From the NCBI GenBank assembly GCA_019054805.1, contig JAHQIY010000008.1, positions 3,519,501 to 3,583,500 on the forward strand: DNA of 64,000 nucleotides. The letters run 5' to 3'. This DNA is from Brachionus manjavacas. Lineage: Eukaryota > Rotifera > Eurotatoria > Ploima > Brachionidae. Position 1 is the stretch's first letter; every line of letters begins with the position of its first letter. Below are positions 3,031-64,000 of this stretch, piece after piece. The translations under genes were made by a program, and so were the position numbers. The notes beneath the pieces are model-generated. The model was not told where the DNA came from, searched no databases, and saw only the letters and a program-made list of their open reading frames with translations.

Positions 3031-3900
3031 TTATTATTTAACCTTATCGAGTTTTGAAATATTATGAACATAACAATGCAATTCTTGATATTTTTGTTGT
3101 TTTTTTCTCTTAAAAAAAAAAAAAAAACAAATTAAAACAAAACTAAGATTATTAGCCTAATAAGTTTTTTTCTATTAGTTCAAAATTAATTCTGTGAATG
3201 GAGAATGTAACAGAATTTTTGTTTGAATCAATTGTCAAAGCTTGCTAATTATGTGAAAATTTCTGCAAACTATTTTTTTAAAAATGTACTTTTGAATCAA
3301 TTCCTGAATAAAATTTTTGCATAGTTGCTAGATTAAAATTTGAATTCGTTTAAAAAATCATAAAATTTAACTCAGTTATTAATAATACTTTTGACTTTTG
3401 AAAAAACCTAAAAAGCATAACTTAAAAAGTATACAAATGTTGCATTTAACTTGTGATTAATAATTTATTTTATATTTATTTTATTATTTTTATTATTATC
3501 ATTATTAAATAGTAAGTACAATTTTTAAAAATTACTGAATTGCCTATTGGCACTTATACCAATTTTAGAGTTAAGAATCAGAAACTTTATGATGGTTAAG
3601 ACCAAAACAAATACTTGATCCAAATTTTTTAAAGCGAGAAGAAATTTTCTTGGTCATTTTCGTGTGAAAAAATTTCACCATTAATAAAAATAATTAATAA
3701 ATAAAAATAAAGGGACTAAAAAGGCTTTAATATTTTTGTTATTTTAATTTGTATCGTAAAATTGTCAGGTTATTTGTGAAAATTTTTTGAAAATCTAAGA
3801 ATTTAATACAACATTATGATTTTTAGACCCTTAACTATAATAAATAATTAACATTAAATATATAAATATTTGAAAAAATTTTTTTTTAATTTTCATTACA
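3031..3900. other. AT-rich intergenic region upstream of FPGT
   Basis: No coding signal, recognisable repeat or RNA gene is visible. The region contains A and T runs and must hold the FPGT promoter, but no confident element can be named. Confidence 0.5.
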
Positions 3901-5628
3901 ATGAAAAACAATTTTTTATTTTATGAAAATCTTATTAAAGGCAACGACTTTTCCTTAAATGGCTATTCATTTAGCAAAGATCAAAACTACTGGGATTTGA
4001 TTGTCATCACTTCTATCAACCAAAAACAAAAAAAATGCTATGAATTGCAGCTAGAATTAAAAATGAATCAACAAAAAATTCCCCAAAACTTCAAATTTTT
4101 GGTTATTGATGATCCAAGTGGATGTAAAATTGGTTCAGGAGGCTCAACACTAAACGTTATCGAAAAACTGTTCCAATCATACAATTATAAATTATTCAAA
4201 ATGAAAATTTTGCTAATACACGCTGGTGGATATAGCCAAAGAATCCCATTTCGTTCTATTATGGGAAAACTTTTCGGATTGTTGCCTTCAGAATCCACAT
4301 ATATAAATGACATTTTCGATTTTAAATTAGCATGCTTTACTCCTTTTACTATTGACATGGAACCAGGAATATTCATTACAAGCTCAGATGACATCGAGAC
4401 TTTTATCCTAGAAGAACAAATAAAGGCTAGCAAATTATTTGGTGTGTGTGACCAGGATTTTATTCTTTTAGCCCACAAGTCTTCACTAGATACAGCTAAA
4501 GATCATGGAGTGTACAAGATTAATTTTAATTTAGATTCTAGTGCAAATGAAGCCGATTTCGCTCGTTTATCATGCGAATCTGTATATCAAAAGCCCTCGA
4601 TAGAAAAAATAAGGCATCTGGAAATGGCATTTGATGATGGGACTTCAGAATATGCTTTTACAGATAGTGTTTTCTTTTTTAGTCACAAGATTTCCAGCCA
4701 ATTGCTTAAATTCCATGATCAATATTTTAAAAAAATTATTCAGCTCAAAATTGAAATTGATATTTATCGTGATTTTCTGCAACCCTTAGGAGATAAAAAG
4801 CAAAGTCTAGATGAATATTTGTCATCAATAAAAATTAGCAATGCCCAAGAACTAGATGTCTTTACCAAAATATATGAGTTGATGAGTGAAAAGCCTGCGA
4901 AAATTTTGTTCTTTAATAAGTCAAAATTTTTCCATCTTGGAACTATAGATGAAATGATGGAATACTATTTTGATTGTATCAGCAAAGATGCAATAAATTT
5001 TCGAGAAGAGATTTGTTTTAAAAAAAATATAGCTGAACTGAAACAAAGCTATTTAATCAGGAGCCAAATTGGTCAAAAATGTGTTTTAAATGAGAATGTA
5101 ATAATCGAGCTATCTTATTTTGATGAAAGTGTCGAAATAGTTATAGGTGATAATAGCTTGATAAGCAATTGCATGTTTAGATTGAACGATTTTACCGGAG
5201 AAATAAAAAATATTAAAATAAATGTACCAAGTGATATATATTTACACACTGTCCCCATAATGGATGAGGTCTCAAACAAGCGTAAGTTTGTTACAATATT
5301 TTTCAAAAGAAATGATGATTTGAAGAAAACGTATGCTTCCTTTGAATCATTGAAAATTCTAGGAGCAAATCTTGGAACAATTGCTAGCCATGTTTTGTGT
5401 AGTGGTGAATATTCAATTTGGAATTTTAAGTTTTTTAAATCTTTTGATACAATGAGTGATTCATTTTTGCATTCGTGTAATTTTATCAATGATTATCTTG
5501 GTAAAAATTTTGAAAATATTCTAATTTATTTTCAGGATGATAAAAATAAATTTATTTCATTATTTGACTTACTTGAGCAGAACGATTTTGAATATATGCT
5601 ACAATTTAGATTAGATAATGGACTATAG
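3901..5628 (+). CDS. FPGT: Fucose-1-phosphate guanylyltransferase (GDP-L-fucose pyrophosphorylase)
   Basis: A 575-residue single-exon protein, close to the roughly 590 residues of vertebrate FPGT. The enzyme makes GDP-L-fucose from GTP and L-fucose-1-phosphate in the cytosolic salvage pathway, feeding fucosyltransferases in the Golgi. The evidence is the glycine-rich nucleotide-binding segment DPSGCKIGSGGSTLNVIEKL at residues 71-90, followed by LLIHAGGYSQRIP at about 104-116 and GKLFGLLP at about 122-129. Both are hallmarks of the L-fucokinase/FPGT domain family. The C-terminal half, around YLIRSQIGQKCVLNENVIIE, fits the beta-helix region of the family. The ATG at 3901 is the first in a clean frame. 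A canonical AATAAA lies at 5708-5713, about 80 bases after the stop. The fucokinase partner domain is absent, so this is the stand-alone animal type rather than the plant/bacterial FKP fusion. No sign of decay. Confidence 0.92.
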   Translation: MKNNFLFYENLIKGNDFSLNGYSFSKDQNYWDLIVITSINQKQKKCYELQLELKMNQQKIPQNFKFLVIDDPSGCKIGSGGSTLNVIEKLFQSYNYKLFKMKILLIHAGGYSQRIPFRSIMGKLFGLLPSESTYINDIFDFKLACFTPFTIDMEPGIFITSSDDIETFILEEQIKASKLFGVCDQDFILLAHKSSLDTAKDHGVYKINFNLDSSANEADFARLSCESVYQKPSIEKIRHLEMAFDDGTSEYAFTDSVFFFSHKISSQLLKFHDQYFKKIIQLKIEIDIYRDFLQPLGDKKQSLDEYLSSIKISNAQELDVFTKIYELMSEKPAKILFFNKSKFFHLGTIDEMMEYYFDCISKDAINFREEICFKKNIAELKQSYLIRSQIGQKCVLNENVIIELSYFDESVEIVIGDNSLISNCMFRLNDFTGEIKNIKINVPSDIYLHTVPIMDEVSNKRKFVTIFFKRNDDLKKTYASFESLKILGANLGTIASHVLCSGEYSIWNFKFFKSFDTMSDSFLHSCNFINDYLGKNFENILIYFQDDKNKFISLFDLLEQNDFEYMLQFRLDNGL

Positions 5629-31562: not shown

Positions 31563-33077
31563 CTATTTTGAATTTTTTGATTTTAATTTAAACATTTTTA
31601 CAAGCAATCTTTTGAACTCGGTTCTAAAAGTGGCGCCTGATATTGAATAAAGCAGAAAGTTACATGAAAACGACGTGTAAAACAAACTATGAAATATTTC
31701 TCTCAACTCGAACTCTATCGGATATATAAAATTTTTTCCGCTAATAAATATCCGAATGGCAATGTAGACATTAATAGAATGAACTGGTAGGTTTAGAATT
31801 AAAAAAGTAGTTGACACAACAATGAGCATTTTGGTGACTTTTCGCGAGACTGAATTTGTTTTCGAGCCACCAATTTTGAAGCTAGTCCGAGCCCTAAAGT
31901 CATTCTTCTTGCCCAATAAACTTGACAATTCAGCCGAGTTCTTTTTCTCTCCTTCCTCTCTTATCCTCACACTTGAATTCTTCCATGTGGCCCTCGACTG
32001 CCTTCGACAGTAATGTCTAGGCGACTGCTTCGAATTAAAAGATAAATCTTGTAAGTCATTGTTGCCAAAGCTGGTACAATTAAAACAATTTGAACTAGAG
32101 TTTAGAGCCTTGCATTTAGGGCTGTTTACAGGTGAGTCGTTCATTGACTCGTTTGCTCTCGATTCGTTTTCATAAAAGCTTGATTTTTTTAAAAAAACTA
32201 AATTCTTCAAAATGCTCTTTCTCCGCAGTTGATTTTGGATGTCCACAGGTCCCGCGCCAATGCTTACACCATCCTGAATTTTGTACAAATTTTCCGAGTT
32301 CTTTTGATTGGCAACATTTAGTGAATTGTTTGGCTCGAAGGTAAAATGGTTATTCGAAGTTCTGATCATAAAATTGTAGCTGGACTTTTTGAGTGTTTTG
32401 ATGATGATCGCGTTCATGATTAGCAAGCCGAAAAATGGTATGATCAGAGTGAACAGCGAGTCCAAAAAGTTAAATTGCTCTACCTGCTGGTCCGAGCCGT
32501 CTTTGGCGGTACAAATTTTGGTGCTGTTGTCTTGATGATGGGTCTTGATGTCGAACATGAACAGGGTCGCCCCGTAGAACAAGCAGGCAAACAGAAAAAG
32601 TAGAACAACTAGGATTTTTGAGCCCCTTTCCAAGTTCAGAAAATTGACTCGAAGCGGAAAACAAATGACAAACAGTCGTTGCAGCGTGAACGTGAATATT
32701 AGGCTGCAAGATAGAAAATTGAATATGTAGCCGAGATAGACGCTTAGTTTGCAGGCTATGCCATGCTTGGAAAATGTCATCAGCAATTGGTGGTCGTCCC
32801 AGTATTTGAAAAAAAGGATAATCAAAAATCCAATGTCGCTAAGAGCAAGACTGATCAGATAGAAGCTTGTTTTTTTCGTATGGGTTAGTTTGGTGCGCCA
32901 AAATATCACTATTGTGATCGAGTTGCCAATTAGGCCTACCACAATAATGAACATTATGTAGTAGGAATTCAAAAATTGGGAAATTGCGGAAAGAATTGTT
33001 TCTGAGCTTTGCTCAATATTCTGTCTCGAACTGTTCGTGTAGTTCAAAAATTTGGTCGAATTGAACGCTAGTGACAT
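31563..33077 (-). CDS. Class A (rhodopsin-like) G protein-coupled receptor, neuropeptide-receptor type
   Basis: A 504-residue intronless receptor for the plasma membrane. The N-terminus has acceptor sites NST (6-8), NYT (12-14) and NSS (15-17). TM1 is about 39-60 with GN51-52. TM2 is 72-92 with LALSD, D81 being the conserved sodium-site aspartate. TM3 starts at C109 and ends in QRL (133-135) in place of DRY. TM4 is 154-176 and TM5 205-226. TM6 is 412-436 with LNLPVH in place of CWLP. TM7 is about 457-480 with CNFLLYS in place of NPxxY. The third intracellular loop is unusually long (about 231-411) and rich in serine and basic residues. NF-x-x-Y in TM7 and the QRL box recall FMRFamide/peptide receptors of protostomes. 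The ligand cannot be told from sequence. The start ATG (33075-33077) is clear. Confidence 0.9.
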   Translation of the reverse strand: MSLAFNSTKFLNYTNSSRQNIEQSSETILSAISQFLNSYYIMFIIVVGLIGNSITIVIFWRTKLTHTKKTSFYLISLALSDIGFLIILFFKYWDDHQLLMTFSKHGIACKLSVYLGYIFNFLSCSLIFTFTLQRLFVICFPLRVNFLNLERGSKILVVLLFLFACLFYGATLFMFDIKTHHQDNSTKICTAKDGSDQQVEQFNFLDSLFTLIIPFFGLLIMNAIIIKTLKKSSYNFMIRTSNNHFTFEPNNSLNVANQKNSENLYKIQDGVSIGAGPVDIQNQLRRKSILKNLVFLKKSSFYENESRANESMNDSPVNSPKCKALNSSSNCFNCTSFGNNDLQDLSFNSKQSPRHYCRRQSRATWKNSSVRIREEGEKKNSAELSSLLGKKNDFRARTSFKIGGSKTNSVSRKVTKMLIVVSTTFLILNLPVHSINVYIAIRIFISGKNFIYPIEFELREIFHSLFYTSFSCNFLLYSISGATFRTEFKRLLVKMFKLKSKNSK

Positions 33078-36000
33078 CTTAATCTCAGTGAATCATTCCA
33101 TAAACAGTTCAAATTGAAAAGAGTAAATTATTTCTGGAAAAAAGGAGAATTTTAGTTTTATTTTTAAAATTAATGATAAATTAATAAAAAAAATTCATAA
33201 AAAATTTCTAACATGATCTAATGAGCCGAAAGAAAAATAATGTGAAAATGGTTTTCAAAAAATCTTGGCCCATATTTTATTCCAAAATGAAGCATAAATC
33301 AAATAAGCTGTCTTTTCCAAAATTTTGTTCATTATTGGGTAAATATTTTTAGTTTAGGATAAACTGCTGAGAACCTTGAATATTTTGGAAGATGTGGTCT
33401 TAACAGAGTAAATTCTACCAAAAACTGAAAAAGTTATCGGCAAAAACAGTAATTATTAAATCATTATATTTTTTCTTTCAAGCCTGGAATCACTAAATAA
33501 TTAATTTTTTTTTCAAGCTAAAGATATAACAAATTTTGGCTTTTATTTTAAATTTTTTCAAAAAAACTAAAATTTGAGCATATTAAAATTCTTGATATTT
33601 TTCAGGCGATAGATAATGTAACTTAAATGTAATTTAAAATCACCATTTATATTTCATTTTCTTCTTAGAAATTTACCAAAAAAGATCTTAAATTTATTAT
33701 AACCAATTTTTAATTACTCTTTAATTTTTAGATAAAAATCACTCTGATAATCCGAGAAGTCGGAAAAAAAATTTTTAAGGCATAATAAATTTGAATCCTT
33801 GAGCCATTAATGAAAAAAATTTAGATTAGTACGTTCATGCTTTTTATCACAAATTTAAATAAGAAATTTTAAATAAATTTGGTTGCTAAAGATTAAAAAT
33901 GTTAGAATTTATATTTTAAAAATCGTTTTAAAAAAAATAGATGCAGAAATGTGAAAATTAAAGAAATAATTAATTAAGATTATTTAATTTCTAAATTAGA
34001 ATTAAAAAATATTAATTTATTTATTCAAATCGTGGCAATCAAGAATTTCGATTTCAAAATAACATTCCTCTGACATATATTTTTTATTTAAATATATATT
34101 TTTAGTTTTTAAAAAAAAATTAATAAAGTTTTTAGGTAATGTTTAAATTTCTTGTCATCAATGAAGCATTTAATGGCACATAAAAGGATTTGAAAGAAAG
34201 GCTAATGCAAATAATTGAGTAATGAAAATAATGTTAAAATAAACAGTAAATTTTCTGAAAAAAAAGTAGTTTAAAAAAAAGCATTTTTTTTAATTTTTAG
34301 CGCAATTCGGATAAATTTAAATAAATAATCGGATGAGCATTAAAAAAAATAAAATAGATTTAAAATTTTAATCATTAAAAATCTAAAGAAATAATTACAA
34401 AGTCAGTCATAAACTATAACTTGAAATGAATACAGACCGACGAAAGAGCAAACAGGTTTTGCTAATGGTTTAAGAAAAAATATTAAGAGATAAATTCTGC
34501 CATTAGCTTAAGACTGCATACGTTTTCAGGACAAAAATTGATGAGAAATTATTTAAAATAATCTAAGAATATTGACTTTTATGAATAAGTAGTACTTCCA
34601 CTTCCTACATCAATAATAATGTAAATAATAGTAAGAGAAATGCAAATGATTAAACAAAAATAAGTCGATTAATATGATAACTTAATTTTAAAATAATTAA
34701 ATAGCAAATGATTTAGATTAAATCTTCAATTACTTTATTCATGTTCAGCAAAGCATTTAACAAAAAATATTAACAATAGCTAAAAATCATAAGCCTATTT
34801 TTAATACCCTAAAAACAGATACCAGTTTTAAAATAGGCAAAAAGATTGATTCTAATTATTAAATGCACGTTTAAGCTTATTTTAGACTAAAAAACGTTGA
34901 TTTAAATGATGAAAAGTTTATTAACAATTAAAAAAAATATTTTGCAGAAATTAATCAATTTAATAAATTCAACATTGGTTAGAATAAAATTATTTCGATT
35001 GGAAACAAGGTCCTCTTTCAAAAGAGATATTTAGCTACTTTTAGCACTCATCAATGAGAGCTCTTGAAATGAAATCTCATTTTAACAATTATTTTTCTTC
35101 TCAAATATTTTAAAAGAGCTGGAATAATAGTTTAAAATTTTAAATAATAATTAGATTATAAACTTGTCTATTGTTGCTATTTTTAATTCTATGACAATCT
35201 AAACAATTAATTAACATGCTAATTCCGGAATTGGTATATTCTGCTTGAGATCCTATTACTCATAAAAAAAACTCTACAATCAACATGTAATTCAATATTG
35301 TCTAAAATTCTGATTGAGTTCAAGAATATCTAAATTAAAAATTGAGTCCAGATATTGGAGCGCTTGTGTTCGACAAGGAAGTTAATTTGGCATAACCAAA
35401 TGTATTCCAGCAGCCATAATAAAATTATTCAAATTTCTTAGCTGCTAGAAGAACGCGAATGCTGCTCAATCTTAGATAATGTGTCGCGTTGCTTGTCATT
35501 TTTTTTAATATTTGATTTTTTTACAGCATGTTTAGAATAATGGAAATTTTCGTCGAGTATTGGGTAAATATTTAAGTTAGGGCCGAGAAAACATGAGCAA
35601 AAAAAACAAGACTGGTATTAGTTTTTTTTTAAATCTATTAAATATTAATTTGAGTCAATATCGAAAAAAAGGATAAAGTTGAAATTTAGACTAGTTGGTG
35701 TAGAGTCTAAAATGAAATTTATTTTTTTATTTAAAAAAAATGCGCAAAATCGAAATACTTCATTAAAATAAATTGAATTTTTAAATTTTCTTAAAACATA
35801 AATTTTGCTTTGAATCGATGCCTCGAGCAAAAAAATTTAAATTCTAATAATGATGAAAGATTAGTTGTTTTTTTTTCAGACCCTCAATTATTTTCTAAGG
35901 TATTATTTTTGATAGATCAATCCAAATTTTTGCAAGAATTAAAAAAGGTTTAAAATTTATCTAAGATTGAAAAAAAAATGCTTAACTATTCATTAAATGA

Positions 36001-39717: not shown

Positions 39718-41573
39718 TTAACATTGAGTAACTCGCGAGTCTTCGACAAATCGTTTGACGCAACGAGCATAATTGTACGGATACAAGCCTGAAAAATAAA
39801 AAATAATTTTTTACTATTTGAATTTGAATTTAAATTTTCACATTTTCAAACTCATTTAACTCTAAGTCAAAGCTAGCTTTAAATTTCTTTTGTTTTCTTA
39901 GTATCAATTATTCGCTTTTTAAAGGAAAAACATTTTTTATAATCAAGGTTTTTTCCGCTTTTTTCAAATTTAAAAAGAAATTTTTAGCTTTGAGTTCATA
40001 TCCTTTATTTTTCTCAATTGAAATGAAAAACCGAGCCAGGTATGTGATTAATAGAAAAAAAATTACCCTGAACAATTTCCCCATTTTCCGTTCTCATAAT
40101 ACCCTCATACCAATGGTCATCATTTTTCTTAATAACATAAATGTACATATTTTCTTTGAATGTAAGCTCGTCATCTCTGAGACCCTCGTAGTCGAAAAGA
40201 GTAATGACTTTTTCCAGACATCTGCCAATAGGCACCCAATTGGGAATGTAGTCATCATCTTCGTCCTCGTCAAAGTCATTCTCGAACACATTGTGGCCAA
40301 AATTGACCTCTTCGTTCACCGAAGAACTATCCGGGTTGTTTCTTAGGCCTGAGAATAGAAGTGGCGGAGGTGGCAAGCCATGTATTGAACTTGTGTTGCT
40401 CAAAATCGATTGATTACCCATTTGATTGCTTTTTTGACTATCTGATCTATTGAATTGATTTTTTGAGCCTGGTGCATAATTGGACCCGTCCACTTGGTTC
40501 GAATTTGATCTGTCATAAATTGACGAGTGTAGCTGTGGTCTCCTGTAAATGGTGCCACTAGTAGCATAGTCAATATTGTTCAAGTTTGTTCTAATTAGTC
40601 CAATGTCTTTACCAGAAGCGTAGCCAACCGAATTGGCTGAATAGTTACCCATTTGCTGTAAATAAGCATTAGCAGCTCGTCTGTCAATAGTGTCCGAATA
40701 CTCGGACACTCCTTGGTTTATGCTGTTGTTCTGCCTTCTGTATGACATGCCGCCATAGGCTCCTGAAAGCGACTCGGTACCTGCACTCTGATTCAGCTCT
40801 TTTTTAGATGAGTAAATGCCCAGCTCTTGTCTGCTCAGATACTCGGTGGGAACTGAGGGTGGTATGACCGGAGTCCTGTAAATTGAATTCGAATTGCTCG
40901 ATCTAATCGTGCCCATTCCATTATTTGTGTTCACGCTCATCGATTTTAAGATCAATGGAGGAGTGCTGGAAACCTCTGGAGTTTTTAAATTGGCCGAATT
41001 TATCGAATGACTGCTGGTGTAGGAATTTTGTCTGCCGACACCAATCTTTGACAGCTGATCCTGTTGCCTATTTATTTTGACACCATGACCAACGTCATCT
41101 AAAATGGAATAATCGATGGCTTTGCGAACATATTTGACTGGTTTCTCTTCGACATCCGGTTTTTTAACCTTGGATGTTCGAACCAGACATTTGTTGGTGG
41201 TCAAGACGCCTACTTCTCGTCGGGCCACTTTTTCCTTGTGTATGGTGACATCATGTGTCAAATGGTGAATAGAAACACCCATGTCATCCAACACATTCGA
41301 TTGAACATCGAAAAGAGTGAGAAAATTGTTGGCCAATATGTGGATTTGGTAGGCAACGCTGGCCAAAGCCTGTGCTGTAAAACTTCGTGTTTCATTGAGT
41401 AAATGTTGCTTGTCAGCGTCTTTGGAGTTGATGTAAATGTCTTCGCAGTATTGGGCGACTTTTTCCAGATTGCTCACATTGTCCGATAGCTTTTTGGAAT
41501 TTTCTTGAATTTCAGAGTCTACCAGGGTTTTTATTTGGTCAAAATTTATGTTCAAGTCACCTTGAAGTTGCAT
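39718..41573 (-). CDS. ABI: Abl interactor (ABI), WAVE-complex subunit, two exons
   Basis: The protein links Abl kinases and Rac signalling to the WAVE regulatory complex, which drives Arp2/3 actin branching at the cell cortex. Exon 1 (41573-40067) and exon 2 (39788-39718) join through donor G/GTAATT and acceptor TTTTTCAG/G in phase 1, giving 525 residues. The N-terminal helical region has VAQYCEDIYI and ASVAYQIHILANNFL (WAVE-complex helix). DIHKEKVARREVGVLTTNK (about 110-128) and YVRKAIDYSILDDVGHGVK form the homeodomain-homologous region. The middle is serine/tyrosine-rich with GLPPPPLLFS. The C-terminal SH3 domain starts near residue 452 (EKVITLFDYEG, DDELTF, HWYEGI) and is completed only by exon 2, GLYPYNYARCV. 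Reading through the intron destroys the end of the SH3. Length and order fit the animal ABI family (about 480-510 residues). Confidence 0.95.
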
Positions 41574-42917
41574 TTTTATCCTACAGCTTCTTAATCAAGT
41601 TATTTTGATAGATTAGATTATTTAGAATTTTATGAATTTTTTATTTTTATTTTGTTAAAGCAATAAAAATTCGTTTTGTCTTGGTAGAACAAAATTAACT
41701 TTAATTTAAGGCTTTAAGTTTTGAAATAAAAAATAACTTTAAAATTTAACGTTTCTCATTTTTTCAATGAATTAGTTTTTATTTTTTGTAAAATAAAATT
41801 TTAATGAAGGAGAAAAAATTATCAAAAAGTGGTCATTTATATTTATTTATATTTTTTTATTTTTGGATTGAGTATAATTTGTTCGTGAATCAAGAAGAAT
41901 AAAAATTTGAATAATTTCAGAAAAGTAAATAATGCAGTCATTGCAGCGTTATGTTCGTCATTGTTTAAAATATCTCATAAATATTTCATTTGATGCTCAT
42001 CAAATGATGCTGAAGTAATTTTCAATTTTTTTTTAATTCAGCTTAGAATTTATAATATTTTAGTCATTAATAGTTAATACTTAGAAAAAAGTAATTAAGA
42101 AGAAAATTTAATATGTGAGGCCAAAGTATGTGAAATTTTACGCAAAAGGTTCCAAGATCCAATTGCAAAATTAATTTAAATTTAAATTTATATTTTTCAA
42201 ACTGAAAATCAATTAAATAATTAAATAACTTTTAGCTTACGTGTGTTCTCTTACTAAAACATCAAATAAATTATTCACATGTTTGAATATGTTTTGATGA
42301 ATTATTGTAAATTGTAAAATAATGTTCTGATATAATATTTGACTAGTGTTTTGGTTATTCAGTTTTTTTCTGGTAAGAATAATCAAATTATGGTAACCTA
42401 TTTTCTTTTTGAGATGTTGAACTTATTAAGTATTAAAAAGTGATGATTTTATTCGTTTTAATCCGATCAAGCTTCAGAGATTCAGATTCTAATTCTCAGG
42501 AAAAAATGGAATTTAAAATTTGTGGTGGTCAAAAAAAATTAATTTTTTTTACAATTCAACTTTTAAATAAATTTTTTTAAACAATTTAGACTTCTTATCG
42601 TAAGATATAGCAAAAAGCATATTAATATTTAATATTTTTGAAGAAATTTAAAAAGTCAAATTTTAATATTTTTTTAAAATAACTTTTGATCTAAAAATCG
42701 TTAAAAAATGATCAGGGGCTCTTTTAAATATGTTTTTTTTTTGCTCTTTAAAATGAACTATTAAACATATATATTTCCTATAAAAAAAATCAAAGGACAC
42801 TCGTCATTTTTAGGCAAAGGTGTTCCAAATGGCCTATTTCTGTTAATAAAAATTGTAACAACTAGTTTATTATGTTTTTATAGTTATAATTTTATTTTAT
42901 TTATTTATTTATTTCAA
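41574..42917. other. AT-rich region upstream of ABI
   Basis: It presumably holds the ABI promoter and 5' UTR on the minus strand. No repeat, RNA or coding signal could be singled out. Confidence 0.4.
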
Positions 42918-46411: not shown

Positions 46412-47743
46412 AAGCGCAAAAAATTTAGCCATATTTATCCAGCCATAATAGTTAGGTGCCTTGTAATTTTAATTTTTGAATTTTAAAAATTTTGAATTTG
46501 TTAAAAAATTACAAAATGTATTCACACATTGCAATGTATTTTAAAAGACTGAATTTAGATGATAGAATGAATGTGTTTTTTTTTCTGTTTTTTTTTAAAT
46601 GTTAAAAAATCTTTAATTTGAAATTTTTATTTTAAATATCAAGACCTTAATTTATTGGGACCTTGAAAATTAGATACCAAGTGGCTGTAATAACGGCAAA
46701 ATGCTTAAATCACTTGACCAAGATATACAACTTTGGAAGATTTTTTTTCATATATTAAAAATATGTTTCTTTAACAATGGAAAAACCAAACTCATAAACT
46801 TTTAAAAGGCTAATTTAAATTTTGATAGTTTTTTTTTTAATTCCAGGAATTTTAGTTAAATAAACAAAATAGAATATATTTTATTAAATTCTAATGAAAA
46901 TATCTTAAGACATTCATAATCAAATCATCAAATCATGTCAAATCAAATAAACTGACAAGAACAAAAACTTTAAAACTGAAATTGGGTCTATATTTAGTGT
47001 TAAATACTAAAAAAGGTCTTACCAATTCAATCAACTTCATTTAAACATAAATGACATATGAAATTACTATCTCAAATGATGTAATGTAGCATTTTAATTT
47101 ACTTAGTTCAGGTTTGTATTTTTTTTCCTTTTAAAAAATTTGTGATTCTCATAATGATTCTCTTTGATGGAAGCTGATTTTCAAAAAAAAATTAAAAAAA
47201 TATTAAAATGCAGCATAAAATTTTTTTTTAACTAAGTAGATTCATGGTAAATCGATTTTGAATAAGATTTTCCAGTTTTGAATCTTTTAAGAAACTGTTA
47301 AGGAAATTTTGAGAATTTCAAATTTTGTATGTCTAATATTCTGTTCGAAAATAAATTAATAAAATCATGTTAATTATAGATTTTTGATAAAAATAAATGA
47401 AAAATTAAAATGAAAATTACAGACTTTGAGAGCAAAAAGGATTGTTACCGCTAGTTTAGGAACCAAAAACTATTCAATTTTACATTTTTTAAAATTCGCA
47501 AATACAACATCCTCGAAAAATAAATAGTCGTAAATAAATACAATTTTTTAGCATGATTGAAAGAAATACCTGATAAGAAGAGATAATAATGAAGGTACCG
47601 AGGTTCCAGGCTAATTTAAGACTATTTCTGCAAATAGTCTCTAAAAAGGAATCGAAAAAAATTAATTTTGAAATTTTATCTTTTTTTATTTTATTTTAGA
47701 TCTTAAAATTGAAGAAAATACTATTCTAAAAGCAGGTATTAAA
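46412..47743. other. AT-rich region upstream of the YLPM1-like gene
   Basis: No gene. A small hairpin GACTATTTCTGCAAATAGTC lies at about 47622-47641. A convincing acceptor TTTTATTTTATTTTAG ends at 47701, 43 bases before the ATG, so an upstream non-coding or coding exon may exist in this stretch. Confidence 0.4.
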
Positions 47744-48775
47744 ATGAATAATAACGGTATGCCTCAAATAAACCCTATGCTGTTGAATCCACAGTGGGTT
47801 CAGTATCAAAAATCTCTCAATCAAATTCAAAATTTAAAAAATCAGCCTCAGCCTTTAATGGGAAAGCATGTTTCAAGCGACATAGATTTCAGCTCCAAAA
47901 TGGTTCGCTATGACCAAAAGAACGACCTTCAACTAATAGAAGAATATTTTGGACAAAAAATTTGTGATCTAGAGTCAAGCGAAACTGATCTGAAAAATTT
48001 GGAAATAGAGATTCAAAGTATAGATTATAAGCATGGTTTGTCATCTAGTGTTAGTTCAATAGTCAATATGGGTCAACTATCTGATGATATTGAGCCTGTT
48101 GCTGAAGAGCCGGAGGTGACAAAGGAAGAAAAAATTAATAGTCAGCTATTGGAACTAATGGCATCGCATCCCAAGCGACCACCGGTTAAAATAGAACAGC
48201 TTCTTTTAGAGCCTCATCGGGAACATCGACCGCACAAGCTTGTGATCATTCTTCGTGGTCCACCAGGTTCCGGAAAGTCATTCATTGCCAATTTGATCAA
48301 ACAAGAAGAGGAGAAACATGTCAGTTCATCGGATAAACCCAAATATTTGAGTATTGATAACTATTTTATCAGTGAACAGGAAACAAGTGGTAAAAATCAG
48401 ATTTTGATGAAATATGAGTATGACAAAGCAATGGATGAAGCTTATCAAAAAAGTCTAGTAAAATCATTTAAAAAAATAATTGATGACGATCTATTTAATT
48501 TTATAATTGTGGATATGATAAACGAGAGAAAAAACCATATTGAAGAAATGTTCTCCCACGCAAGACTCAAAGCGTTCCAAGTCTACGTAGCAGATCTAAA
48601 TTTTGTTAGCACAGAAACTTGTTTTAGCCGAAATGTTCACAACAGAACTTTGGAGGATATAAAAAAAATTAAAGATAGTTGGGAAACATTTTCAGATTCT
48701 TATTTATTTCTGGATGTAAGTTTTTTTATTAAAGAACCTACTGAAATCAGGCAAGTGGAAATGGAAGATGGATAA
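47744..48775 (+). CDS. YLPM1: YLPM1/ZAP3-like protein with P-loop nucleotide-kinase-like domain
   Basis: A 343-residue protein matching the C-terminal half of the nuclear YLP-motif protein (ZAP3), a PP1-associated factor linked to RNA and telomerase regulation in vertebrates. The Walker A motif is LRGPPGSGKSF at 170-180. Then come YLSIDNYFI (201-209), KYEYDKAMDEAYQ-S (223-237), FNFIIVDMINER (251-262), the CFSRNVHNRTLEDIKKI segment (293-309), DSWE, and the conserved VEMED at the very end. All are in the order seen in YLPM1. The long YLP-repeat and proline-rich N-terminus of vertebrate homologues is missing. The frame is open 5' of the ATG to an acceptor-like TTTTAG at 47701, so an extra 5' exon is possible. 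The ATG at 47744 is the first in frame. No decay visible. Confidence 0.85.
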   Translation: MNNNGMPQINPMLLNPQWVQYQKSLNQIQNLKNQPQPLMGKHVSSDIDFSSKMVRYDQKNDLQLIEEYFGQKICDLESSETDLKNLEIEIQSIDYKHGLSSSVSSIVNMGQLSDDIEPVAEEPEVTKEEKINSQLLELMASHPKRPPVKIEQLLLEPHREHRPHKLVIILRGPPGSGKSFIANLIKQEEEKHVSSSDKPKYLSIDNYFISEQETSGKNQILMKYEYDKAMDEAYQKSLVKSFKKIIDDDLFNFIIVDMINERKNHIEEMFSHARLKAFQVYVADLNFVSTETCFSRNVHNRTLEDIKKIKDSWETFSDSYLFLDVSFFIKEPTEIRQVEMEDG

Positions 48776-55254: not shown

Positions 55255-56035
55255 CACTCAAGACCCTAATACTATCGTCCAATTGGAATGACAAGCTGTC
55301 TTGGCAAGTGGAACTTGAACGAATTTTTCCACTAGAATATATAATTTTCTCGAGAAAAGTAATTTACAAATTAAAGAGCAATCAGGATTTAGAAAACATA
55401 GACGAACTGCAGATAATCTTTATTTTCTTATCCAAAAATTTATTAAGTCTTTTAATGGAAAGAAAAAAGTCTGTTGTCCAATTTTGATTTCTAAAGCCTA
55501 AAAAAAAGAAGAAAAGATAAAACGACAAGTTTTGGATTATAATAGAAACAATTTAGATTTTTTTATTCGTGGCTTTGCTAATTTGCTAATTGATTAATTT
55601 TTGTCGCTATTTTTTTCTCTAAAAAAAAATTCTCTAATTTACTTTCTCTTTTATATTTTTTTTTCTCTAATAAATTTATTCTCTATAATATTGACTATTA
55701 ATTATCTCTATTTTTTTTCTCTATTATGAACGTTTACCGGGCAAGTAATTAGTCCACTTCTTTTTAGCATATTTATAAATGACATACCAAAAATAAATAT
55801 TTATTGAATACCCAACTTTATTGAATACCCGACTCCATTGTGTAATTGCTACCTTACAATTTCTTCTTTTTTCCCTGAACAATCAATTTTTTAAAAATAT
55901 GTATCCTTTAACTCTCTAGTTCAATTTCATTAATTTTCCTCATTTTAAACCATTTTATTACATTTTATTTTTTTTTATTTTTTAAATTTTTATTCTATCT
56001 TATTTAACTTTATTTTATTTTGATTCATTTATTTT
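55255..56035 (+). pseudogene. Internally deleted second copy of the LINE at 6225-10500
   Basis: The plus strand shows reverse-transcriptase pieces YYRPIGMTSCLGK, EQSGFRKHRRTADNLYFLIQ and, after about 235 bases of unrelated TTTCTCTAAT-rich sequence, QVISPLLFSIFINDIPKIN. Then, with the rest of ORF2 deleted, the C-terminal tail HCVIATLQFLLFSLNNQFFK and the family 3' UTR (to about 56005-56035). Stops and frameshifts abound. It confirms the family 3' end. Confidence 0.8.
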
Positions 56036-56175
56036 ATTCGCATTTTTGGATGTAATGGGTATAACCATTCTAAAAATTTCAAAAAATCTGGGTATTTAGG
56101 TTCAGGTATAGGTAAGATTACCCGATTTTTAAGATTTTTAGAATGGTTATACCCATTGCACCCAAAAATGCGAAT
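56036..56175. repeat. Inverted repeat of 40 bases at the LINE 3' boundary
   Basis: TATTCGCATTTTTGGATGTA followed by ATGGGTATAACCATTCTAAA on the left is mirrored by 56136-56175 with only two or three mismatches. It could be a small MITE, inserted next to or at the end of the LINE copy. Confidence 0.65.
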
Positions 56176-56455
56176 AATCCATATCTACACCTAAGTACCC
56201 GAAAAAATCAGCATTCTAACCCATACCCATAACAATTAGCTGAGTTAAAGACTTTCTCAAATCTTACCCAAACTCCTAAAAAATTGGGTGGAAATGTCTG
56301 GTGTATAGTCAATCAAAAGCTAGGTTATAAATTTTCTAAAATCAGTTCAATAAATTGATTTTCTACGCGTTCGTATCTGCTTACTAGCTCGTCACGCGAT
56401 CGCTCGTATCAAAACAAGTTTCATTATACCATGGGCACTAGTGGACGCACAAAAT

Positions 56456-56499
56456 AATTTTACCAGTATTCAGATGCAGTTATGAATACTGGTAAAATT
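56456..56499. repeat. Perfect hairpin, 17-base stem
   Basis: AATTTTACCAGTATTCA and its exact reverse complement are separated by the 10-base loop GATGCAGTTA. The flanking 56360-56460 is less AT-rich than the surroundings. Confidence 0.85.
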
Positions 56500-59400
56500 A
56501 CATTGCTTTCTTCTCCAGAGGAAAAAAAAATTAAAAAAGACTAGATAGGTAATATATACTCCATCATTTTATTGAAAGAATTTTTATAAGGGACAATTTG
56601 AGCTTTCTTTTTATTGAAGTGAAATTATCTTTCGGAAAAAATTGAATGAGTGTATTTTTGTCTTAATTAATTAATAATTAATATTTTAATTATTAAATTT
56701 CAGTAAAATCATTAGAATAAATTAAACTGTCAATTCTCAGGAAATAAGAATTATTTTGAATTATTTTAAAAAATTTAGAAATTTTTTTTTTGATAAATTT
56801 TAAATATATTGCAAGCTGCATTGAATTTAATTTTTAAAATTTCAATTAACCAAAAGTACCCAAATATTTTAATAATCCCAATTAATGTCTGAAAAATAAA
56901 TTTGGTATTTTCCTTATGAAATCATTCCCAATTCTTCAAAAAAATTCTATTTAAAAAAATTAGACTGTTCCAAAAGCCCTTACCATAACAACAATTCCAT
57001 TCAGCTATCTCTTTAAAATTTAAATTCAAATCTAAAGTTTATCAGAGGTGATTCAAAAAAGTAGAAAATAATTCTTGGAATTGTAGAAGACCATGAGAAG
57101 ATTTTTAAAATTTTCCATAATAATAAGAACAATTTTATATTTAAACGATTCCTTTAACAAATGATTCTTTTTTTTTTAAAGAATACTTTTTTATGTTTGC
57201 TGAATGAACTGTGGACTTGTGATTATAAAGACTCAAGAAAAACAAAAGACTGAATTTAATTAAAAATCTTAAATTTTATTTGTCTTGTTTAAAGCTAATC
57301 TTTTCTAATTTAATATTGAAGATCTTAAGGAGAGATCTGAACAACTCTATTTGATCTGATTCTTTAAAGACTTACAGCATTTTCAATATGATCTGACTGT
57401 TCCATTTATTTCAAAAATAGCTAAGGATAAAACAATAAAATCTTCCAAACTTATGACCGTGTTCAAAACTTTGAATATGTATTCTTGTCAATGGAATAAA
57501 AGGTAAATTTACGATTCTCACAAGGAGAAGGAATAATAAGTTTTTTTAATTTTTTAATTTTCAATTATTTTTTGTTTATTTTCTTCTCATAAATATAAAA
57601 TTTTTTAATTTCATTGTTCAGTTTTTAGGCTACAAAAAAAACTATCAATTAAACCAAATAATAATTTTCATGAACAGAAAATAAGCATTCTGAAAAAATT
57701 TAATCAAATTTTATTGTTTTCATTAAATTTTAACAAGCTTTATTAAGTAGGTTTTCGCTTGAAAGAAAATTAGAAAAAAAATAGTAAAATTTTGATTAAA
57801 ACATTTAACATTTTTGATTGAGAATAAACTCTTTTATCGAGCAAATAATTAATAGTTATATAAGCTAAAATTTACGCTTGCAGTAATTTTTTTTTAAAAA
57901 AGAGTTTTAAATTTTTTTGTATTTTTGAAAAAATGTATGGTTTCTATGACAAATTTCTTTTCCTTTGAGATTTAGTGCTTAGCTTTTCTCTAAGTGTTTT
58001 AAGTTAAACATTTAATTCAATAAAAAAGCAATTATAAAAATTAATTATTATACTATCTTAATGATAAGTTTATTTTTAAGAAAATTTTAAATCGTAAAAA
58101 CCGACCAGATCCAAAGTCAGATCTATCTACTCTAAGACTGTAAATTTTTGACAAATAATTTATTGCCATTAATTGCCATAAGTGGTGTGAGATATCAAGC
58201 TTTCAAGATATCTTTTATTCATTTTTATTTTTTTACAGTATTTAAGTAATAATTTAATCAAAAAATTCAACATGTTACTAAGTGGTCTATTCAACGTTTT
58301 CTATTTATTATTGGAATTGAAAAAATAAGATAAAATGTTTGCAATAAAAAAAATAGTTTGAAAGCAAAATTGATAAAATTTTCAATTTTTTAAAAATAGT
58401 TCCAAGATTTGGTTCTTAATTTTTTGTTTGGAAATTAATTGCTTTTCAAGGTAAAGTCAATTTAAATGAATTAAAAAACGAGTCAAATTACATTGTATTT
58501 AGTTTTTCTGGTTATTTCGTCTAGTTTATTTGCTTTGGTTGAAATTAAGATTTTTTTTCAATTTCAAAGTTCAAATATTTAGTTTCAAGTTAATCGATAG
58601 TCGATTTTTATAAATTTTTAATCAAAAATAAATTTACAAAAAAAAATTTTTTATTCAGACTTATTGATTAATATGAGTGTAACCTTAACTAGTCGAAGTT
58701 TTAACCTTTGATTTCAACATTCAGTTATTAAATGAATTATTAGCTTTGAAATTAAATTCAAATTAGTTTTTATTCTATTGATTAATTATTTTTCAATAAT
58801 CAAATTTGGATTTGACCAATTCAAAATTAAATTTGCGTCTACGGAAGAAATTTTAATGTTAAATTTAGACAAAATTTTAATTTTGGCATAAGTGAATTTT
58901 TTAGAGAGGATGGAGGGAAATAAGAACAAAATTTTTGATCAATTATTTCAGTTTGAGGCAAAATTATTTTCTGATCAGAGCAAAAAATATAATATCTAAA
59001 GCATCATATCGAGCAAAAAAATTTGAAATAATTTATGCTAAAAGGTGGCTTTGGTAAAAATAAATTGATCAGAAGAAAATTTAAGGAATCGATAGATTAG
59101 ATCTGCGAGTTTGGTTAATTGAGCGTTTGTTTCTTAGGGCCCTTTTCCAAGCTGTTTCAACATTTTAAATGAAAATTTATTTTTTCCTACTATCGAAATT
59201 CAAACTCAAGCTATATGATTTCAAATTTTAAATTCATATTTTATTTCAATTTATTCTTGCAATCATAATATATTATTATTGGGGCTTTTCTTAGTATTAT
59301 TTTATTATTTTTTGTTTTTATAGTTTGCGATTTGTTGTTGTTTATGTTGATGTTAAATTTAAAATTAATAACTAAAGGAGCAAACGAAGAAGTAAAAGAT

Positions 59401-59727
59401 TAGGGAAAAATTTAAACCCAAAATGCAATCTATTTAAAAATCTTTAGTTAATTTTACACTCAAATGGTACTCTAGCTTGCCGTATCCCAGAGCATCCAAA
59501 GCCTAGAGCTGATTTCTAAAAAAATATTTGTATTTTATCTAGACTATGAAATTAATGCTTTATTTTGGCATGCAAGTCAACTCAAGCTCAAATATGTAAA
59601 TACCGCTGCAGCCACTCTAAACCGAAAATCAAAAAACCTACGACAATAACTAATTAAATCGGTTGATAATTTTTTTGAGAAGTTTTTAAAAATTACCTCC
59701 AAACGAAATCTTAAATATAGTCTATTA
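56500..59727. other. AT-rich region upstream of the NWD-like gene
   Basis: No ORF, RNA gene or clear transposon found. The last 270 bases before the ATG (about 59455-59727) have more balanced base composition and may be promoter and 5' UTR. Confidence 0.4.
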
Positions 59728-62700
59728 ATGGGTTGCGCATGTTCTAGGGCCCATCTATCTGAAGATAAACGCGAATCCAGGTAGTATATTTTTTAAATTT
59801 TTTTATCAATTTTATTCACCTCTTTTCCGCAATCTTAAAATCAATTATTAGCACGCCCGCAGCGCTGGCCAAATTTTCCAATTTTTCCTACATTTTTGTT
59901 TACTTTTTGTCGTCTAGAATAAATAAAATTTATTTTTTTAAACTTTTTGAGTATCAGGAGTCGGATTTTTTAAGTTTTTAAAAAATAAATTTTGTAAACT
60001 AAATTTCTCTTTTTTGTTTAAGCTGAAATTTTAATTGACTTCTGTTTTTTAAGGACTAAAAATTTAACAAATGAGACCGATTTTGGCACCGGCAGTTGTG
60101 TAAACAAATATGTAAAGATTACTGATTGCAATGATACGGAGACTAATGTTTCCAATCAGGTAGACCGAAGCGAAGTTTCAAAATCTTCGAAACCAAGAGG
60201 GAAAAAACAAAACTTAAAGCCTGATTTGAGCTATCAAGAAACAAATGTCAAAGCTTTTAACAAACAAAATTCAAATAATTCGCTTCTGAAACCGATTACA
60301 AATTTATTTAGCAAATTTTCCAGCTCGAATACTTTAATAGACTCACAATTGGTAAACATAAATGAGACTAAATTTTCAGAATCAGTAAACTTGGTAGACG
60401 AATCTTTGAATCAACAGAACAAAATTTTGGTAAGTGAACGGTTTACCATTTATTCATGATCAAATACTTTTTTTAAGATTTAAAAATTTGATTAAATTTT
60501 TGAAAAAATTTCTTTAAAAATAGTCTTTTTTTAAAAGAATGAAAAAAAAAAGATCTCAATAATCAAATTTTAGCTACAAAAATATATATATTTCTGGGTG
60601 TCTATTTAATTCCGCAAAAAGGGTCAATAAGTTTGGTTACCAATTTTTTTCACTAATAGATCCATTGTTGAAGTTTAAAATTTTTAAAGTTTAAGTTTAA
60701 TTGGGAAATTGATTAATAGAAAGATCTTTATCTTGAACTCAAAAAGTTTTTGGTAAATAAAAACTTAGTTATTACAACTTTACTGTTTTTTCTGATGAAT
60801 AATGTGATGAGTTATAAATGGCTAATTGAAGTTCAAGATCAAATATAAATTTCAAAATCAAAATCTTAGTTTTAGATTTTAAAAAAAGGTATTTTTTATC
60901 AAATTTTTAAATAAGAAATGGCTTAACTTTATTAAACATGATTTTTTTAATCTTTAATTAGGAAGAAAATTATTTGAATTTTTATGTGAAGTAAAACAAA
61001 ATCTTAATCAATATTTTGAAATTTTGCTGCAAACAAAATTAGAATTAAATCTCGCTAAATAAATTTTAGTAAATACTAAAATATCATTTAAAGCCATAAT
61101 TTGGATAACTTACTGTGGATTTTAAATTTATCTTTAGATTTTTAAATAAAGATTTTAGAAGAATCAGAGAAGATTTTTTTTTAAAAATCAAAATAATAAA
61201 CATTTTTTGTTTAATTTAAAAAACAAAATTTAAAAAAGCTTAATTCATCATTTTTATTAAGATTCTTATCTTTTAATTTTTGATCATCTGGTCATGATCA
61301 TGAATTTCAAAATGCCGTTTTAAATAAGATACTAACTTTGACACACTGTTTTCAAGAAAATTTATCAAAAATACCACAAAATAAAATTATTTTATAGTTA
61401 GACTAAACTAATTGATGATAAAATTGCGACAAAGTTTAATGAGCATTCGAGAAATAAGTGTGGGAGGTGGCTTGAGGGTTTTTCTCTAATTATTTAAATT
61501 AAAAAACATAGTGTTTTATTTTGTTGACCTATTGAATAATAAAGTAAAGAAAAAAAAGTCTAGTGAAAAAATATGCTTTTTTTGGGTTGAATTTTAAGAT
61601 GAAAAAAATAATTTCGAATAATTTTAAAGAGTAATAAATTAATTATCATCGAAATTAATTAATATTGGCAGCAAAGTTCATAAAAAAGAAGGCGGCATTT
61701 TTTATTTTTTCCATAAAAAAATACTATTTTTATGAAGTAATAAAAAAGGCTTAAGGAGTTAAATAAAAAAAATTTTAAGTTTTTTAAGCAGTATTTCTTG
61801 GTTGTGAGGCAGCGGCAGCATAAAGGGTCGAGTAATCAGAGTTTGAAGCAGAAACAGGTGTCTTTGATTTTTATTCTAGATGCTACTTACTTTTCAACCT
61901 CAGTGGCGTTCCATTTTGTGACATTTAATGATTCCTTTTGATCAACCAGTTGAAATCCTAAAGCTTTTCCGTTCCATTACTCTACTTCTAGCCTCGTTGG
62001 GAATTAAATTTTTTTTTTAAGGATCATAGTTAAGTAATTAAAATTAAAAATTAAAAATTCGATAAACTATAGCTCAGAATATAGCAAATTTTTTATCAAT
62101 TTAAATAAATTTAAATTTAGATGCTTCCTGTTTTCATTGTTTAAATTAAAAAGATAAAGTATAAAGTAATTTTTTTCTTAGAATGAATCAAACGGAAACT
62201 CGTCAAACCAACTGAGACAAATTACCAATCAGTCATGTCTTAGTGTATACTCAATATACAACCTTCCGATTCGAACCCAATACTTGCTAAACTCTCACGA
62301 TGACATTGAGAAATTAAATGTTCTTGACCTGTCAAGATATTTTGATAGCCATGGTATGCCAAAAAAGTTAAACAGCGAAATTCAACTATATCTCAGTCTC
62401 CCATATTATCTGACAGACTTGGCGCTAATAGACGCTAGTTTGATGAAGTCTAACATGATTTTGTTGGACAAACACCTAAATGAAGAGTTCCAAAACGCGG
62501 ACAAAAGCCCTGATTTGAGTTCCATGTGCTTATTTGACTATTTAAGACTTTATTGTGCACAACACGCAACCAATACTTGTGACTTGAATGTGATCAATTT
62601 GAACAATTATAGATCAAAATCGACTCAAATTAATCTATTGAGTAACAAATACTTTAGACGTGCACTGGGTGTAATCATTTTGAATGACTTGTTAAATGTT

Positions 62701-63928
62701 AAACAAGCGAGCAAGTACTCTTACAATAGCTATAACAATTTTTTGCCAGGCTATAACACTTTCGTGGTAGGATAAAAATTAAAAATTAAAATTTCTATAT
62801 TTAAAAAAAAAATAAAATAAAGATTTATCTATCCGAGGGTCAAATTGAAGAGGAAAATTGGGATGAACTGTTGTGTCCGGACACCATAGATGAGAGTGAC
62901 TACAAGAATCTGCTAGAGAGAAAATTGCTAATGTCAAATTTGACAGAGTTGTTTCACAAATATTACAAACTAGATAAATCCATGCAATCTTACAGATTGG
63001 AAATAGATTTTTTCGAATCGGAAGTGTTTGATAAAGATATGAAGGTGTTGTATGAATTTTTTAGAAAAGCTGAAAATGAGAGTGTGGACCCGGGCAACGA
63101 GATGAGCTTTGGTCTAAAGTACCTTAAATCAATTCAGCAACAAGAAATAGAAATAATTGTTAGCCATGCCGAGCCCCAATCAATTATTTGGGTCCATATG
63201 ACCAAAGTGGACTTTGCATTCAATCGAACTTGCTCGCATGAATTCAATGGTTTGCGGTACACCAAAATGCTCAGGCTGCTTCAGTCCAAAGTTTTGACAA
63301 ACAAGTACAAACACTTTGCCGGCGAGAATCTTAACAGCTCTTCGCATGGCAGCCCTCAGACTATACTTAACGATTTTATCTACAATTCAGTCAAGTCATT
63401 GATCGATAAATTGACTTTCGAGTTAATCAAAAATCAAAATCAAATAATAGCATTGAGTAAGCATTGGAATAAAATTAATAAAATTTTTTTTAATATTTTT
63501 TTTTATTTCAAGAAATTGATAAGCAATTAGCGAACGAAATTTTCAAACACTACAATTACTTTAGTTATTTGAAAAGATCCTACTTTGGAAATTCTTATTC
63601 ATTTAAATTAGAGTCTATGCTAAACGATTACCTGAATGATAAAACTTCAGCTTATAGCCACCCACTAGTTGTGTTCAATGAGAGCAAATTAAGTTGCCAA
63701 GATCCAAGTCATAACGAAACAATAACTTATTTTGATATCTTGATGTCCAAATGGCTCAATAAATTGATAGATGCTAATAGCAAAAAAAATGATCTAAATA
63801 CAAAGTCTTCTATCATTTATCGCTATTGCAATCATTCAATACTCTCGTCCGATTTGACCACTTTGCTTCAGAGTGTTTTGCATCAACTCTGTTACATTAT
63901 TGAAATTCATGAGTCATGTGCATTTGAT
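59728..63928 (+). CDS. NWD1/NWD2-like NACHT-family (STAND) protein, 5' part; N-terminal lipidation motif, P-loop lost
   Basis: Five exons (59728-59780, 60054-60429, 62182-62766, 62823-63456, 63513-63928) join in phase to 688 residues; the gene continues past the window. Animal NWD proteins have an N-terminal region, a NACHT ATPase and C-terminal WD40 repeats. Recognisable here are QIEEENWDELL and YKLD-x(6)-YRLE, then QQQEIEIIVSHAEPQSIIW, the pre-NACHT region. LANEIFKHYNYFSYLKRSYF and LESMLNDYLND follow. HPLVVFNESKLSC occupies the place of the P-loop, and IIYRYCNHSILSSDLTTLLQ with SVLHQLCYI fits the segment after it (RFLGTS..S..LL.S.C.QI). The first 18 residues start MGCACSRAHL, a textbook N-myristoylation plus palmitoylation signal, predicting membrane anchoring. 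The family assignment rests on pattern memory, not a search. WD repeats should lie downstream. Confidence 0.72.
60820..61316. mobile_element. Mutator-like MITE, copy B, in intron 2 of the NWD-like gene
   Basis: Ends GGCTAATTGAAGTTCAAGAT and (reverse-complemented right end) GGCATTTTGAAATTCATGAT. Flanks GTTATAAAT and GTTTTAAAT give a 9-base target duplication with one mismatch. The interior matches copy A (54315-54839) in inverted orientation. More diverged ends than copy A suggest an older insertion. Confidence 0.7.
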
Positions 63929-64000
63929 GTAAGTTTTTACTTAAATATTTGCCAATGTTAAGTTAAGTTTCAAAAATAACCAAAGAATGTCACAAAAATA

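Follow-up and report, generated by a model that had tools for sequence, protein, structure and literature searches.

In STAND proteins, ATP/ADP exchange at the NACHT domain drives oligomerisation. NWD proteins, whose homologues have been found across animals (PMC8871372), are described as having their parts in the order DUF4062-NACHT-WD40, and the DUF4062-NACHT order recurs in NPHP3 and TEP1 (PMC13174449). According to the latter paper DUF4062 has a TIR-like NADase fold, and hydrolysis of NAD+ was seen with human TEP1 but not with NWD1, NWD2 or NPHP3. The worm NWD1, QUI-1, is reported to have most of its Walker A motif preserved and acts in sensory neurons (PMC8871372). Outside the NWD family, rice Pb1 is naturally devoid of a P-loop, Arabidopsis ADR1-L2 and an NLRC4 P-loop mutant retain helper or signalling functions, and P-loop-less or P-loop-independent NLRs have been proposed as helpers or scaffold parts (PMC3478704); some NLRs may be pseudoenzymes according to a review (PMC7583971). 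A P-loop-less NWD protein was not among the matches listed from the open-access literature, which is not proof of absence. A natural NWD copy with its ATPase site erased and its frame otherwise open would separate scaffold from switch.

The gene analysed here lies towards the end of the window (the whole stretch of Brachionus manjavacas DNA under analysis, 64,000 nucleotides) and continues past it on the same contig. It spans eight exons, from 59728 to the continued coordinate 70383, and encodes a product of 1473 aa (Table 1). A preliminary description, restricted to the interval 62823-63928, had taken this to be an NWD-like NACHT protein with an erased Walker A motif and a pseudo-ATPase scaffold; its interval corresponds exactly to exons 4 and 5, with ag/gt borders and compatible phases. 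Exons 1-3 precede this interval (59728-62766), and exons 6-8 are found past the end of the window. Its observation is right and its reading largely so: the core is NACHT-derived, the nucleotide site is erased, the gene looks intact and the protein ends in a WD40 region. Judging from sequence, we regard the protein as probably a pseudo-ATPase NWD-like scaffold, one that is related to the animal NWD (DUF4062-NACHT-WD40) proteins but has diverged strongly from them and lost nucleotide binding. We place the probability of this reading at about 0.58, slightly reduced from 0.60 because an unrelated P-loop NTPase matches the NACHT profile equally well.

Table 1. Features of the gene and its surroundings. 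Positions are those of the window; positions above 64000 are continued coordinates.
Feature	Position	Strand	Remarks
Fucose pyrophosphorylase	3874-5622	+	
Rhodopsin-type receptor	31566-33092	-	
Abl interactor	40017-41594	-	
KTI12-like P-loop protein	47672-48772	+	
Exon 1	59728-59780	+	aa 1-17, MGCACSRAHLSEDKRES; ATG start, gt donor; joins exon 2 in phase 2
Exon 2	60054-60429	+	aa 18-143; polar linker, probably disordered; other frames 11 and 14 stops
Exon 3	62182-62766	+	aa 144-338; place of the DUF4062/TIR-like domain in NWD proteins, not statistically recognisable
Exon 4	62823-63456	+	aa 339-549; DUF4062-like end, then linker to NACHT
Exon 5	63513-63928	+	aa 550-688; first half of NACHT core including erased P-loop
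Erased Walker A	63662-63706	+	PLVVFNESKLSCQDP (aa 600-614) replaces P....GxSGxGK(S/T)
Retained NACHT element	63812-63889	+	IIYRYCNHSILSSDLTTLLQSVLHQL (aa 650-675), matches VLLRFLGTTPISSDIIKTFQSLMRQL
Intron 5 start	63929-64000	+	intron 5 is long (63929-66603); exons 6-8 on same contig, outside window
Exons 6, 7, 8	66604-68379, 69749-69930, 69987-70383	+	Walker B remnant, helical part, WD40 region, TAA
AIG1/GIMAP-type GTPase	72593-73904	-	next gene downstream; Pfam AIG1 6.2e-17 and 9.8e-15

Six NWD genes of the same genome served as comparators (C1, C7, two of the C18 cluster, C10 and C26, with the NWD genes of C3 left out), and all six carry an intact P-loop (GPSGCGKS, GDSGSGKT, GESGCGKT twice, GYSGCGKT and GSTITGKT). 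Ordinary searches with the rotifer protein were silent on NACHT: neither the whole protein nor exon 5 had a NACHT model among its Pfam matches up to E 10, exon 5 having no Pfam match of any kind, the PDB sequence searches returned nothing relevant, and a HMMER profile of the six NWD NACHT domains omitted the protein up to E 10, about 30 of 2000 shuffles being listed. A weak Pfam match to ATPase_2 was seen at aa 690-760 (E 0.097). Profile-profile comparison gave a different result. When aa 1-1100 were compared with the six NWD proteins by hhalign, aa 511-733, including the linker from aa 511 on in exon 4, aligned with a probability of 86% (P 5.2e-6) and a score of 60.2. None of 300 shuffles scored above 39.2 and none of 200 block shuffles above 29.5, and the reversed sequence gave 18.3. 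In a comparison with five aligned NWD NACHT domains, the near-duplicate C18b being left out, aa 547-828 gave 94.0% (P 1.4e-7, score 55.3). The match is collinear from the linker through Walker B and places the segment FNESKLSC on the P-loop. The NACHT kinship proposed in the preliminary description thus stood in profile-profile comparison, above 500/500 shuffles, and did not stand in ordinary HMM searches (Pfam, HMMER); where that description would have given way to a lack of any profile similarity to NACHT proteins, hhalign similarity was found.

Several controls define how this similarity is to be read. Matches to single comparators were weak, with probabilities of at most 12%. With the C18a/C10 pair, C1, C7 or C26 removed from the profile, the protein was matched at 89, 51, 75 and 92%, respectively, the removal of C1 causing the drop to 51%; the members left out matched their own reduced profiles at 95.5-99.9%, and the most diverged of them, C26, scored 59.3 compared with 55.3 for the protein studied here. 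Another 20 ORFs, each at least 200 aa long, were compared with the NACHT profile, and 17 of them scored 19.3 or less. The three higher-scoring ones (37.0, 40.2 and 55.4) were an L001 ORF with a visible GGASGAGKT, the KTI12-like ORF at 47672 of the window and an L002 ORF that had been chosen by its Pfam NACHT match, all of them identifiable as P-loop NTPases from a Pfam match or a visible motif. Since the L002 P-loop NTPase scores as high as our protein, the score is a sign of a NACHT-type P-loop NTPase core and not of NWD proteins specifically; the protein attains it despite its absent P-loop. AlphaFold2 models made without an alignment had a mean pLDDT of 53.3 (pTM 0.44) for exon 5 alone, PLVVF not forming a strand in this low-confidence model, and of 35.3 (pTM 0.23) for exon 4 alone, values too low for either model to be informative. 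At the L001 locus itself (C45:188969-192436), adjoining intron-free ORFs resemble aroB, damX and a Dam methylase by eye, and the stretch looks bacterial, from a contaminant or symbiont contig.

At the C-terminus, the WD40 region (approximately aa 1080-1473) measures about 390 aa, the length of one propeller. Pfam propeller models matched there, the WDR3 propeller best (E 2.4e-11), all under their curated cut-offs, and NWD2_C matched with E 5e-6 and 26.3 bits against a cut-off of 33. The regions flanking the NACHT core gave no comparable signal. Neither the whole protein nor exon 5 had a Pfam match for DUF4062, and the whole protein had none for the HTH_NWD1 winged helix. A DUF4062 domain in exons 3-4 (NLNNY compared with DMRWG in C1 and NLNWD in C7) is a resemblance by eye, as 7 of 100 shuffles equalled the local hhalign score of this part against four NWD N-termini. 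For the winged-helix part 38 of 200 shuffles reached the score, and for the piece that follows it 58 of 100 scored as high. By eye, HD1 also seemed to have been deleted, after the Walker B remnant and ahead of the winged-helix part; this reading was discarded, the alignment there not being above shuffles and another register being possible. Because the DUF4062, winged-helix and later parts do not rise above shuffles, the full NWD architecture is a matter of visual comparison. These unsupported flanks, the failure of the Pfam, HMMER and PDB sequence searches and the drop in probability without C1 would all fit a WD40 protein whose helical N-terminal part is unrelated to NACHT and resembles it by accident. 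We consider this unlikely, though it survives best among the rivals, given that the profile-profile score beats every shuffle and 17 of 20 ORFs, that the remaining three are P-loop NTPases, and that the collinear match sets FNESKLSC on the P-loop.

Further NWD-related loci were seen in the genome. In the C3 NWD gene (C3:3022130-3028097), no GxxxxGK(S/T) was present in the 1 kb before its RFLGTT element (C3:3022901-3023900, reverse strand), which is preceded by the short frame FPFRFGIRGNQIVKFKK; the P-loop exon may lie at a greater distance, or the gene may be another case of a degenerate P-loop. The region C18:1027506-1029300 contains inverted NWD fragments in two equal-scoring pairs with several stops and resembles a palindromic pseudogene pair. 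On the reverse strand of the C10 NWD locus an exon is duplicated (VTEKEIFNGIL... occurs twice), and by eye a LINE-type reverse transcriptase frame lies between exons. An ORF of 2825 aa at C2:2233903, TEP1-like in size, matches DUF4062 with 59.7 bits and, weakly, HTH_NWD1 with 20.6 bits.

The Walker A site of the rotifer protein reads HPLVVFNESKLSCQDPSHNET, with FNESKLSC (aa 604-611) where NWD proteins have GxSGxGK(S/T), and in both the hhalign and MAFFT alignments PLVVFNESKLSCQDP pairs with the comparator P-loops PFVMHGPSGCGK and PYVLYGESGCGK. The peptides quoted in the preliminary description are present, namely HPLVVFNESKLSCQDPSHNE, in which PLVVF corresponds to aa 600-604 (window 63662-63676), and IIYRYCNHSILSSDLTTLLQ from window 63812. 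To the loss of Walker A recognised there, the loss of the Walker B Asp can be added, which lies beyond the window and was invisible to that description: the remnant EIVIILNNLNSL (aa 714-725), in exon 6, has Asn in place of Asp (ILNNL, IVIILNNLNSL). The downstream NACHT segment, held to be still recognisable, indeed keeps within aa 650-675 an Arg, a Ser and a Gln that are invariant in five NWD NACHT domains. These five intact domains, to which the protein is 16-22% identical, share 13 invariant columns. Six are kept (the linker His, the Pro preceding the P-loop strand, the Arg of IxxRF, the Ser and Gln of the next helix and one Phe) and seven lost, among them all four nucleotide-binding columns, i.e. 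the two P-loop glycines, the lysine and the Walker B Asp. Non-canonical nucleotide binding might persist, for example via K608 in NESKLSC or via a partner, as a lysine is found near the expected place and deviant P-loops are used by some NTPases, but this is improbable for a protein that has no glycine in aa 576-660 and in which the Walker B Asp has become Asn.

The gene model itself is open and coding-biased throughout. All seven introns are GT-AG, their phases fit, and no stop interrupts the 1473 codons, whereas 200 shuffles of the coding sequence contained a mean of 107.7 stops (minimum 83). Codon use favoured the true frame in all eight exons, the training set for the preference being 17 ORFs, each at least 250 aa long, taken from NWD loci of the genome and from L042 (the C2:2233903 locus), and the other frames held 3-58 stops per exon with the exception of one stop-free frame of the 53-base exon 1. 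Exon 2 contains no methionine, so the start codon must lie upstream of it. The GC content of exon 1 is 0.49, compared with 0.23 in introns and flanks and with 0.27-0.35 in five other ATG-to-donor candidates (using two donors) in 55501-60020, which have the same phase and were subject to the same donor threshold. The splice phases on which the preliminary description relied, and its impression that the gene is not pseudogene-like, are borne out by an intact frame over the full length of the presumably expressed gene. A decaying gene, whether a recent pseudogene or a copy released from constraint, is slightly less probable still than residual nucleotide binding. The catalytic residues are gone, other NWD fragments in the genome contain stops (C18:1027506-1029300), and a search of the genome (114 Mb, 61 contigs) with aa 144-1280 showed no close paralogue, all four matches being the gene's own exons; against this, the 1473 codons are free of stops where the shuffles have about 108, all eight exons show coding bias, and decay over the time required for a divergence to 16-22% identity would be expected to leave many stops. 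A missed or alternative exon as the source of the P-loop, which the preliminary description had named as a way of refuting it, is extremely improbable. Intron 5 is long, and the search could not have seen a motif interrupted by an intron, but the six frames of 59001-70500, introns included, hold no contiguous GxxxxGK(S/T), and PLVVFNESKLSC, aligned to the P-loop, lies within the single uninterrupted exon 5.

Both ends of the protein were compared with lipidation signals. The predicted start, MGCACS, fits the N-myristoylation rule with adjoining palmitoylation, the MG....S/T pattern resting on the predicted first exon, and suggests an N-terminal lipid anchor. In the NWD proteins of C7 and the C18 cluster, CaaX boxes are found at the other end: CIIQ ends the long last ORF of C7 and CLIQ ends two presumed tail exons of the C18 cluster, in contrast to the protein studied here, for which none was found. 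The sole CaaX-like stop in 68000-72600 closes a 17-aa frame (72329-72382) and was rejected as its end. CaaX-like ends occur at 35 of 9844 stops in the six frames of the window. In C26, CCIL is a possible CaaX box, and C1 has no typical aliphatic CaaX box within the stretch read. The sequences suggest that the NWD proteins with CaaX boxes in this genome are prenylated, and we infer that membrane attachment matters for some of these NWD proteins and that the present one would have it at the opposite end.

Under the reading of a diverged NWD-like protein without nucleotide binding, the P-loop has given way to a glycine-free loop and the Walker B Asp to Asn, and a number of structural positions of the NACHT core are retained. 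The NACHT fold, if it persists, would keep an N-terminal module and the WD40 propeller at the C-terminus fixed relative to each other, and the protein would be attached to the membrane by its MGCACS start. With its P-loop absent, the protein should not switch, and the simplest role would be that of a fixed scaffold or of a partner of intact NWD proteins; its binding of partners, which might be ATP-competent NWD paralogues, would need no nucleotide switch. A bolder proposal, which we put forward only tentatively and think rather doubtful, is that an NWD paralogue has turned into a membrane platform that is obligately nucleotide-free, with its Walker motifs lost and an N-terminal acyl anchor, where some relatives in the genome have C-terminal CaaX boxes, acting as a constitutive partner or brake of ATP-competent NWD proteins, an animal counterpart of the P-loop-less helper NLRs.

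In comparison with known systems, the protein resembles NWD1 and NWD2 (QUI-1 and T05C3.2 in C. elegans) in having a NACHT core followed by a C-terminal WD40 region, and differs from them in that Walker A and B are erased, DUF4062 is not recognisable and the WD40 region is about 390 aa long. With the six NWD comparators of its own genome it has the NACHT core in common, the P-loop being intact in the comparators and erased here. From NPHP3 and TEP1 the rotifer protein differs in having neither a recognisable DUF4062 nor a P-loop; NPHP3 is N-myristoylated and carries TPRs in place of WD40. Rice Pb1, ADR1-L2 and the NLRC4 mutant belong to plant NB-ARC/LRR or animal NACHT/LRR proteins and not to the NWD proteins, and the P-loop-less plant NLRs, of which rice Pb1 is the example, may serve as a working analogue through likeness of principle rather than close descent.
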